Below the pieces are notes generated by a model. It was given only the letters and a program-made list of their open reading frames with translations. It searched no databases and had not been told where the DNA came from. Made by a program: the position numbers and the translations under genes. DNA of 64,000 bases from Sphingopyxis sp. (GTDB lineage: Bacteria > Pseudomonadota > Alphaproteobacteria > Sphingomonadales > Sphingomonadaceae), in contig NZ_JAEULM010000003.1 in NCBI RefSeq assembly GCF_016793825.1, forward strand, positions 1 through 64,000, given 5' to 3'. Shown one piece after another: positions 159-8,488 of the stretch; within the stretch, counting starts at the first letter, position 1; every line of letters begins with the position of its first letter.

Positions 159-343
159 CTGTAAAGATTAACCGATTTGGTACGCTGTAGGACAATAGAA
201 TTTTTTGAGGCGTAGGGCGCTGATCAGTAACCCGTGGTCAGCATGTTGATTGCGGCCATGACTGTTTTGCCATGATGAATTGTAGAGGGGGTGACGCGAT
301 GGACGCAGCTAAAGTTGCTGGGTCGCGTCGAGGGACGGCCCGT

Positions 344-1543
344 CTATTCGATGCCAAGGAAACGGCGTTGTTTTTTATTGAGGGCGCTAAAATGCTGGCC
401 CAACGCTTCTTCAATTGCGCTGACCAGCGCCGCGCGTTTCATTGTTGAGACTTCATGCACCAGTTCAGTGTGATTTGCCGCGCCTTTGTATGCCTGCAGG
501 TACCCGGACGAGAGAGCATCAAGGAAACCGCCCAGCCTTGGTAGCGTGACCCTTTTTTGCAGAAGCGCATCGACTCTACCCAAACCTGCAATCTTTGCCC
601 CGATGTTCTGAACGCATTTGTCGCTTATTCGAAGTTCGTACTCTCCGGAATCCGAAAACGCTATTTCCATTCCAAGAAATTCGGCGGATTCCTCGGGTTT
701 ATAAACCTTAGTCTTAGAGTTTTTTGTTCCGATAGCGCCAATGGATAGACTTAGCTTTTCAAGCTCACCTCGAAGAAATTTGTCAAAGGAAGTGCATTCT
801 TCTTCGCAATCAAAAAAGGCAACTATATCATCAACATATCTTATTGCTCGGTATCCGTGCTTTTCGAGCGTTTTGTCCAAATCTCTAAGTATCAACCCGG
901 CAAAATATGGAGATAGGGGCATGCCTTGACGGACGCCTTTTCCAGGGACAATTCCAGATCGTCCAATAATATTCCTCCAATCAGGGTCAAATCCGTCTTC
1001 AATCTCCGTATGTACAAACGGGATTATCAACTTGTGGAGAGATCGATGCGGTATTATTCTAGATGAGAGATCGACAATAATATCTCTAGGTATATTGTCG
1101 AAAAACTTCTCAATGTCGGCTTTGTAAACCCACTTGTGCTTGTTTCGGAAACGAATTGACTGAATTCGCGCGTCACCAACGGTTCGATTGGAGTTTCTTA
1201 TGAGGCCGTAGCTGATTGAGTTGAGAAGGCCGCGTTTCTCAAGCGCTGGCCTTATTTCATTGAGAATCGCAAATTGAACAATTCGATCGGCGATGGTTGG
1301 GACGCAAATAATGCGATGCCCGCCGTTTTCTTTCGGCTTCGCGATAGCCAAAAGGCCCTTAGGTTTAAAGTTTCCTCGAATCCTTTCCCGGATTTGATAA
1401 AACTCAGAAGCAATATTCTCTTGAAATTTTTTGCCTGATTTTCGGTCTATACCGAAACAGGACTTTCTGAGGCGCCGTCCCTCATATCGCCAGACACTTT
1501 CGAGATTAGCCCTCGAAAATGCATTGTCCAAGGCGTTAGCCAT
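344..1543 (-). CDS. Stand-alone reverse transcriptase (group II-like, unassigned class)
   Basis: A 399-aa RNA-directed DNA polymerase. Visible motifs: an RT0-like entry GIDRKSGKKF (about 31-40), fingers with PTIADRIVQ (82-90), motif A KADIEKFFDNI with Asp143, the template-grip segment GVRQGMPLSP (203-212), and the catalytic YVDD at 236-239, followed by a KTKVY/FLGMEI segment as in group II-type enzymes. No maturase (GIIM-like) or HNH domain follows. The last ~90 residues are basic and unassigned. Base composition is clearly more AT-rich than the neighbours, which suggests transfer. It follows thiC on the same strand after a 278-nt hairpin-rich gap. Lone RTs with structured leaders occur among defence-associated RTs (DRT types), but the class cannot be assigned by eye. 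An 8-bp hairpin just upstream of the ATG may mask the start. Confidence 0.88.
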   Translation of the reverse strand: MANALDNAFSRANLESVWRYEGRRLRKSCFGIDRKSGKKFQENIASEFYQIRERIRGNFKPKGLLAIAKPKENGGHRIICVPTIADRIVQFAILNEIRPALEKRGLLNSISYGLIRNSNRTVGDARIQSIRFRNKHKWVYKADIEKFFDNIPRDIIVDLSSRIIPHRSLHKLIIPFVHTEIEDGFDPDWRNIIGRSGIVPGKGVRQGMPLSPYFAGLILRDLDKTLEKHGYRAIRYVDDIVAFFDCEEECTSFDKFLRGELEKLSLSIGAIGTKNSKTKVYKPEESAEFLGMEIAFSDSGEYELRISDKCVQNIGAKIAGLGRVDALLQKRVTLPRLGGFLDALSSGYLQAYKGAANHTELVHEVSTMKRAALVSAIEEALGQHFSALNKKQRRFLGIE

Positions 1544-1821
1544 CTAGTTGCCGCCAGCCTTACCTAATCGCCCCATGCTGGCGGGTATCTAGGAGCCGAG
1601 CCTCCGCATTCGGAGAACCGGCATTTGCCACGTGTACGAAGCTGCGGGATACGGCCACGAAGGCGCGTTTCGCCGAAACTTCGACCTGACTACAGAAAGC
1701 GGCTTTCCACTTCTGAAGGCAAACCCAAATGGGGGTCGTTAGCCGCCCATGAAGATGGGGTAATCATGGCAACTTTGCAAGCGGCCTCCAATACTGCCCG
1801 CAAACATTGCTCCCGAACTAC
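1544..1821 (-). ncRNA. Candidate structured RNA / leader of the reverse transcriptase
   Basis: The 278 nt between the thiC stop and the RT start hold at least five short perfect hairpins: 1551-1584 (8-bp CCGCCAGC/GCTGGCGG, ending 7 nt from the RT ATG), 1602-1615 (CTCCG/CGGAG, 4-nt loop), 1667-1679 (GTTTC/GAAAC), 1695-1707 (GAAAG/CTTTC) and 1746-1759 (CCCAT/ATGGG, loop GAAG). Some short hairpins are expected by chance, but the density and the position directly before a lone RT suggest an RT-partner RNA. The boundaries and the existence of a discrete transcript are inference. No convincing gene lies here; the weak plus-strand frame over 1625-1825 has no family resemblance. Confidence 0.35.
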
Positions 1822-3872
<2,051 letters not shown>

Positions 3873-4107
3873 GGCGGACGTTAGGGCGGGGCGGGACGAA
3901 TGTCCACATCTCGTCATTCCCGTGAACCCTGGTCCGGCTTGCGGCGCGATCATCGCGGCGCAATCGCCAAATGCGGGCAAGGAGCCGCCAGGATCTGGAG
4001 GGCAGACCCTCATCCGCGCCGAAAATTGCCAACCCGGATGGGCTTGCGGGTACAGGTGGCGGCCGCATCGCTTTTGAACGAGCAGGATATATGCCGAGTA
4101 TTTCGAG

Positions 4108-8033: not shown

Positions 8034-8075
8034 ATGGCAAGCACCTTCCGCGGAGAAGCCCGCTAAGTCATTGAT

Positions 8076-8249
8076 TTAGACGTGGCCGCCTTGGGGAAAG
8101 CACAAGACACCTTCCACCGGACCTTCTGGTGTGTCAACAATAACAGGAACACATACTGATTGCGTCGTTTTGGTTGCAAGCGGTTCCGCATGGGCGACCG
8201 GAACGATTGTAGAAATCAGTATAGCGGCCGAAAATAGAACACGCTTCAT
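8076..8249 (-). CDS. 57-aa secreted peptide with two cysteines
   Basis: The start at 8249 is chosen because an AGGAGT ribosome site lies eight bases upstream and a textbook signal peptide (MKRVLFSAAILISTIVPVAHA) follows; a frame running in from 8342 has no such support. Cleavage after AHA would leave a mature peptide of about 36 residues containing VCVPVIVDTPEGP and VLCFPQGGHV, with two cysteines 16 apart that could form one disulfide, and a GGHV end. No known family is recognised. It is the first gene of a four-gene minus-strand cassette with a secreted small protein, an HExxH peptidase and a TonB receptor. It could be a precursor processed by the peptidase, or a secreted factor (inference). 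Confidence 0.6.
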   Translation of the reverse strand: MKRVLFSAAILISTIVPVAHAEPLATKTTQSVCVPVIVDTPEGPVEGVLCFPQGGHV

Positions 8250-8488
8250 CGATTTTACTCCTGTTTCTGCAAATGGGTTGGAACACGAACCCGATAAAAA
8301 TCTATGAAAGTAAGCAGAGGAATCAAGATAAAGCTCGACCAATTTTGAGTATTTTAAGTCGATCTTGGATCAATATCTGCTGAACGAGCGCGCAAAACGA
8401 TTGAACGTATACCCGGGATTTCAGATCGCTACTTCCAGCGAGTTGCAACATTGTGTCTCCGGAAAAGCGGGAATGACGATGACAGCGA

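Follow-up and report, generated by a model that had tools for sequence, protein, structure and literature searches.

A Sphingopyxis reverse transcriptase assigned to an unnamed clade with long direct repeats upstream of many of its members

Introduction

Two described reverse transcriptase (RT) systems come closest to the locus reported here. In DRT2 an RT and a noncoding RNA (ncRNA) make 120-bp tandem repeats in K. pneumoniae, and the units of its homologues are divisible by three, free of stop codons and biased towards hydrophobic residues, and encode the toxic protein Neo (PMC12039810). DRT10/UG17 consists of an RT, a SLATT protein and an ncRNA with an A-B-A' template, on which resetting relies on the homology between A and A' (PMC12632851). 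In the literature examined DRT2 is the one known system in which a gene exists only after reverse transcription, and the RT classification of PMC8934634 leaves a part of the RTs unclassified. Here we analyse an RT gene located in a 64,000-nt stretch of Sphingopyxis DNA (hereafter the window), which a preliminary description had tentatively assigned to an uncharacterised class of RTs accompanied by an RNA of their own.

Results

The RT gene occupies positions 344..1543 of the window on the minus strand, starts with ATG and encodes 399 aa, including the active-site residues D143 and YVDD (236-239), exactly as read earlier. RVT_1 is its sole Pfam family (E up to 0.1), so that the protein has neither a maturase nor an HNH domain, and VTG, which we take to be the retron RT motif, is absent from the whole protein; both points had been anticipated. 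The gene is also clearly poorer in GC than its surroundings, as the preliminary description had stated, with 0.457 (46%) vs 0.643 for thiC and 64% for the whole window, and GC3 values of 0.45 for the RT vs 0.85 for thiC. The source assembly is a 52-contig draft totalling 3.86 Mb, in which the window lies on contig C50 and the RT is the single RVT_1 match. The RT is preceded by 278 nt (1544-1821) and, farther upstream, by thiC, with a TPP riboswitch at 3766-3876. Downstream, the contig starts only 343 nt from the stop side of the RT. The claim that the RT stands alone can be kept for the upstream side and for its sister locus L035, where no partner gene follows the RT; the downstream side in the window is cut short by the contig end.

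The window RT reaches the cutoff of no NCBIfam model, and the same holds for the RTs of loci L036, L039 and L076. It scores 145.3 bits with TIGR04416 (group II intron RT, cutoff 300), 46.5 bits with the retron profile St85 (cutoff 235), 34.8 bits with the Drt2 profile (cutoff 390), and likewise far below the cutoff with Drt3a. Among the specific PADLOC models UG17 is the best match with 110.6 bits, vs 442.8 bits for the UG17 RT of L020, which is preceded by a 188-aa gene that looks SLATT-like. An AlphaFold2 model of the RT built from a seven-row alignment (mean pLDDT 74.8) has group II RTs as its top predicted matches among solved structures, with G2L4 in sixth place.

In a tree of 40 RTs ten rows, the window RT among them, form one clade (support 95/94), termed C1, within which the window RT groups with those of L035, L036 and L037 at 100/100. 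C1 lies apart from the group II, HEase-type, RT-Cas1 (two rows), DGR, DRT9 and DRT10 rows and from a second clade, C2; the group II rows do not form a single clade and the nearest neighbour group of C1 is weakly resolved. The labels DRT9, DRT10, UG9, RT-Cas1 and HEase-type derive from PADLOC profiles. The group II label is based on TIGR04416 scores above the cutoff for L006, L014 and L044 and was assigned by hand for L008 and L010, and the DGR label was assigned by hand from imperfect repeat pairs and the GNLTSQ motif, which we take as a mark of DGR-type RTs. L038, L040 and L069-L072, which are near-copies or have broken frames, stand outside the tree. The RT tree proposed in the preliminary description thus yields a separate C1 clade as far as group II, DGR and DRT9/DRT10 rows are concerned, whereas retron, Abi, G2L and DRT2 sequences were compared by profile score or fold only. 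Judged by profiles and tree, the window RT is a member of an unnamed RT clade.

Several known classes were considered and rejected. A group II intron RT is ruled out by the profile score below the cutoff, the missing intron RNA and the separate clade, DRT10/UG17 by the gap to the UG17 RT in profile score (110.6 vs 442.8), the lack of a SLATT gene and the tree, and a DGR by the mismatch pattern of the relatives' repeats (see below) and the separate tree position. As to CRISPR-associated RTs, the window RT falls outside the RT-Cas1 clade, which is represented by two rows.

In total, 16 C1 loci were compared (the window, L035-L042, L046, L069-L072, L076 and L077), ten being the tree rows and six near relatives found by BLAST or tblastn. 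A scan of genome contigs with one protein query returned L035 only, scans of viral contigs returned one C1 member (L046, cut off) and otherwise other RTs, and a 2001-base query from L042 had no match in E. coli genomes. The 2026 overview PMC13213688, with its table of DRT1-9, as far as it was covered, contains no system like C1, and searches of the open PMC literature for long direct repeats, concatemers and later DRT numbers revealed no description of a C1-type family among the matches listed.

The 278-nt leader had been described as rich in hairpins, and indeed several stem-loops are predicted in 1544-1755, whose fold of -88 kcal/mol (z -2.41) is matched by 3 of 200 dinucleotide shuffles. 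Its conserved part (1544..1796, minus strand, as are the other window features of the leader and RT; 253 nt) is the presumed RNA of the RT. This part contains a predicted 5' stem-loop (1729..1750), a predicted stem-loop at 1595..1622 that also appears in a consensus fold of five leaders, and a predicted terminal hairpin (1551..1584; 8 bp, loop of 18) that ends 7 nt before the RT ATG, confirming the hairpin noted earlier next to the start codon. Relatives have a similarly placed hairpin: in all ten C1 loci scored, the window included, a hairpin ends 4-30 nt before the RT start (L077 and five near-copies were excluded from this score), and equally strong hairpins occur in 0-24 of 200 shuffles, but in 48 of 200 for L036. 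In the consensus fold, whose five leaders represent two or three independent lineages, 11 of 40 pairs are changed on both sides; covariation contributes little (-0.44 kcal/mol), and one or two rows break many of the pairs. The preliminary interpretation is thus partly supported: an uncharacterised class of RTs with a dedicated RNA is backed by the separate clade, the lack of an NCBIfam model at cutoff, the low scores with specific PADLOC models, the conserved leader and the pairs changed on both sides, though the covariation remains small.

At the gathering score no Rfam family is found in the leader or around the RT ORF, so that a group II intron RNA (domain V) is absent, as stated previously. 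No direct repeat is present in the 1045 nt before and at the RT start of the window, in agreement with the earlier statement that a template/variable repeat pair is missing. A scan of 1500-1900 for σ70 promoters found nothing, and plasmids searched with the window leader gave no match.

Among 80 genomes of the genus one other carries the leader (G441, locus L035), and its RT is 88% identical to the window RT. The DNA similarity between the two loci comprises a common block of conserved leader and RT (343..1796, 88%), ending at the RT stop codon, and, separately, thiC. The RTs differ with dN 0.060 and dS 0.463 (dN/dS 0.129; thiC, 0.201), and the conserved leader differs at 20 of 253 nt, with 17 changes in the first 111 nt and 3 in the last 142 nt. 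As synonymous change in the RT amounts to ~34%, vs 3/142 in the RT-proximal leader, the leader is more conserved than the synonymous sites of the RT. The low dN/dS and the few leader changes imply that the RT and the adjoining RNA have been under selection since the genomes parted.

A feature of the relatives that is not visible from the window sequence alone is an open frame enclosed by two long direct repeats. Ten of the 16 C1 loci have a near-perfect direct repeat, A-B-A', upstream of the RT, A being 94-129 nt long and 97-100% identical between the copies (seven loci scored). Repeats are absent from five loci (the window, L035, L041, L072 and L077), two of which are complete plasmid records (L041 and L072), and L046 is undecidable as its sequence is cut off 153 nt upstream of the RT. 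The six distinct A-B periods (339, 342, 375, 378, 387 and 399) are all multiples of three (1/729 if independent), and in 7/7 scored loci an endless, stop-free sense frame runs through the concatenated units. In 2000 dinucleotide shuffles the frame is open 0 times for L069, 2 times for L042, 7 times for L039 and 33 times for L076, and in GC-rich units it is commonly open by chance (L037, 904; L038, 758; L036, 256), the antisense frame of the L036 unit being open, too. As the frame stops in the genome within ~26 codons past A2 (loci read by eye), it becomes long only when units are concatenated. All seven units contain a hydrophobic stretch, with best 19-aa hydropathies of 1.80-2.68 (uncontrolled values).

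Selection on the units was assessed for two pairs. Between L037 and L038 the unit has a dS of 0.14, vs 1.39 for the RT, a conservation in line with a functional RNA, perhaps with a coding role as well, and the unit dN/dS is 0.38, from 25 changes. For L042/L069 the dN/dS is 0.62 over the whole unit and 0.69 in B, where off-frame controls give 1.00 and 1.10; coding selection within the unit thus appears modest. Only L076 (2/200 shuffles) and L069 (5/200) have a predicted promoter towards the end of B that exceeds expectation; the best sites are ordinary in L036 (148/200), L039 (38/200) and L042 (54/200), and those of L037 (10/200) and L038 (9/200) lie elsewhere in B. The fold of the long L036 RNA barely exceeds that of shuffles (z -1.40, 9/100 as good).

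The five neighbour genes of four other C1 RTs have no Pfam family in common. On two Acinetobacter plasmids a shared ~240-aa protein follows the RT (L039, 7225-7956; L040, 7225-7944), which has no Pfam match in L039 and is a possible partner. In L069 (A. soli plasmid) and L070 (NZ_CP064203) the RT frames are interrupted, by a frameshift and an inversion, respectively, and the repeats are kept. The gene beside the C1 RT of L041 contains a tract (8041-8356) with self-matches at offsets of 30, 35 and 40, whose translation repeats DRTGQ and which therefore probably has a 5-base unit; it looks like a phase-variable tract.

The window leader aligns with the stretch before A1 of L036-L038 (weakly, around the 5' stem-loop), with one A and with the terminal hairpin, and lacks B. 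Its single A element (1592..1685, 94 nt), which includes the stem-loop at 1595..1622, is the counterpart of the repeat copy in L036 (94 nt), L037 (95 nt) and L038 (94 nt), with significance vs L036 only. Aligned with A2 plus hairpin of L036 the window leader scores 26.5, vs a maximum of 17 in 500 shuffles, whereas alignments with L037 and L038 alone are at chance level (40/500 and 51/500 shuffles). The B elements of L036 and L037 have no match in the window leader (441/500 and 388/500 shuffles). In the 94-nt A elements of the window and L036 the same frame is open, and 10 of 31 residues agree. This anatomy suggests that the window locus is a collapsed or short form of A-B-A'. The simplest reading is that B was lost when the two A copies recombined, as the window groups with the repeat-bearing L036 and L037. 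Since the RT and its RNA have been under selection, either the short form would be functional or B would have been lost only lately. The preliminary description had named as contrary outcomes unrelated leaders without covariation in homologous loci and placement inside a known group II or retron clade. Neither was observed: in the tree the RT lies outside the group II rows, and among the leaders of closer C1 loci that of L036 matches the window leader.

In the second clade, C2, repeats of ~119-138 nt with periods of 350-382 occur upstream of the RT in eight of 12 loci (L011, L012, L013, L015, L019, L021, L099 and L102); five of the 12 were assigned by profile rather than by tree, and L096-L098 were excluded as their genomes had already been counted. 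Seven of the eight C2 periods are not multiples of three. In 8/8 loci a frame of 111-142 aa begins at an ATG within B, runs through A into the start of B (uncontrolled count) and has a hydrophobic N-terminal part. As the genomic A2 precedes the RT and not B, only a concatemer or circle contains this permuted frame in full. By eye, the products of L011, L019 and L102 are related, as are those of L012 and L099. Each of the two RT clades thus seems to be paired with a scrambled gene, but of a different kind.

Discussion

Based on the clade, its repeats, periods and open frames, the conservation and the collapsed anatomy of the window, all of which are directly observed, we infer cDNA synthesis, template resetting, expression, toxicity and defence, and we lean towards a scheme in which C1 RTs copy their upstream RNA into tandem cDNA that forms an "endless" membrane-protein gene, the window being a form without B. 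The template RNA of the full form would be leader-A1-B-A2-hairpin, located directly upstream of the RT. The RT may start near A2 and then copy B and A1, whereupon the nascent DNA, ending in A sequence, might re-anneal to the other A copy and enter the next round, finally resulting in tandem (A-B)n DNA. Because A-B is a multiple of three and free of stops, the long open frame would be present only in this concatemer, where it may encode a protein of repeating membrane segments, and this product would arrest the infected cell in an abortive, DRT2-like defence. The window lacks B entirely and has a single A, precisely the product to be expected if A1 and A2 had recombined.

By analogy, the scheme would join homology-based resetting as in DRT10, extended to ~100 nt, with an endless frame as in DRT2. 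With DRT2 the repeat-bearing C1 relatives share a unit divisible by three, an endless frame and a hydrophobic bias. They differ in that the C1 units are 339-399 nt long vs 120 nt, are flanked by direct repeats of 94-129 nt vs short ACA motifs, and have their frame in the sense of the RT, whereas neo is read from the strand complementary to the ncRNA; the window, moreover, has no repeat pair and no endless-frame unit, in contrast to the seven scored relatives. The logic of an A-B-A' template is that of DRT10, and UG17 is the best specific PADLOC profile of the window RT; however, A has ~100 nt in C1 vs 2-4 nt in DRT10, and no SLATT gene lies beside the window RT, where thiC is found upstream, or in L035, where the unit lies between a small ORF and the 2'-5' RNA ligase-like gene. 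Group II RTs and G2L4 provide the closest solved folds for the window RT model, in line with the 145 bits for TIGR04416, but the RT stays under the cutoff of 300, lacks intron RNA and is placed outside the group II rows. As in DGRs, the RT of C1 relatives adjoins a pair of direct repeats; unlike in DGRs, the repeats are near-perfect, their few mismatches show no preference for A residues, and no target gene was seen.

A broader proposal, on which we find ourselves evenly divided, is that C1 and C2 both store an effector gene scrambled between direct repeats of ~100 nt, which becomes whole only after the RT has made tandem cDNA, as an endless gene in C1 and as a finite, permuted gene with a hydrophobic N-terminus in C2. 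If true, DRT2 would be joined by two more systems in which an RT assembles a gene. Should other lone RT clades use long direct repeats likewise, a general strategy would emerge, a testable product could be assigned to many RTs now called "unknown" or "group II-like", and such systems could be found by a simple rule, i.e. an RT preceded by two near-perfect repeats that enclose an open frame. The window would then represent a collapsed state, arisen naturally, in which the system is switched off, and its locus serves as a natural control without B.

Unlikely, yet the most serious alternative, is that the short form works as it stands, i.e. that the RT and its structured RNA of ~210 nt make repetitive DNA from a short template in the manner of DRT9 or DRT10, and that A-B-A' is cargo added in the relatives. 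Leaders without repeats occur in three branches of C1, namely window/L035, L041/L072 on complete plasmids, and L077; the leader of L041 is folded, too, if weakly (z -1.66, 15/200 shuffles as good), and the window leader and RT remain constrained. However, the window groups with the repeat-bearing L036 and L037 and its A matches the repeat of L036, so that loss of B fits better than original absence.

Improbable is an assembly artefact, in which a true A-B-A' has been collapsed by short-read assembly in both Sphingopyxis genomes. The two carrier genomes are themselves draft assemblies (52 and about 30 contigs) and a collapsed join would look identical to the observed one, but other drafts keep both copies (G262 with about 50 contigs, G315 with about 20, G370 with 9), each Sphingopyxis genome has a single leader match with no separate contig containing A, and the two complete plasmids L041 and L072 are repeat-less as well. 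Slightly less probable still is that the repeats serve DNA recombination, with A-B excised as a gene-carrying circle, one A left behind and the role of the RT limited to making or keeping the copies. The state of the window would be the scar of such an excision, with A alone in two genomes and A-B-A' in close relatives, and recombinase genes are located near the RT in L041 and L072 (annotated as DNA invertase and recombinase family) and in L038 (resolvase-like by eye). Yet L041 and L072 are without repeats, and no recombinase adjoins the RT in the other loci read; repeats that lack an RT are invisible here because the loci were sampled by RT. Least plausible of all is a decayed or domesticated group II-derived RT without RNA partner, whose leader controls translation as part of the mRNA, since, even though group II RTs, G2L4 among them, are the best solved-structure matches, the leader is more conserved than the synonymous sites of the RT, with pairs changed on both sides, and relatives carry repeats.

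The genomic setting is compatible with the role in defence that the tandem-cDNA scheme would assign to the RT. thiC is matched in 75 of 80 genomes of the genus, and in all 11 other Sphingopyxis loci compared (L081-L091; by eye) the 110 nt directly after the thiC stop differ from the window. The far side of the site is marked by a stretch at a 2'-5' RNA ligase-like gene in L035, L092, L093, L094 and L095. In L035 this gene comes directly after the RT and can be aligned with other thiC loci compared, and since it is common to them, no partner gene of the RT follows there. These comparisons indicate that the interval between thiC and the 2'-5' RNA ligase-like gene is a variable cargo site, of which a SocA/Panacea gene is one other occupant.

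Unusual thiC ends were noted in some genomes. L092 (1-845, G000:C15) is a second thiC 3' part in the same assembly, located at a contig edge, 92% identical and with SocA/Panacea cargo behind it, and is either a duplicated thiC end or mixed sequence. In G116 the terminal 87 nt of thiC occur once more (G116:C9:288180-288266) ~0.5 kb downstream, like an attachment repeat, and in G291 the last 94 nt of thiC (G291:C3:116685-116778) are found ~1.9 kb from the rest of the match.
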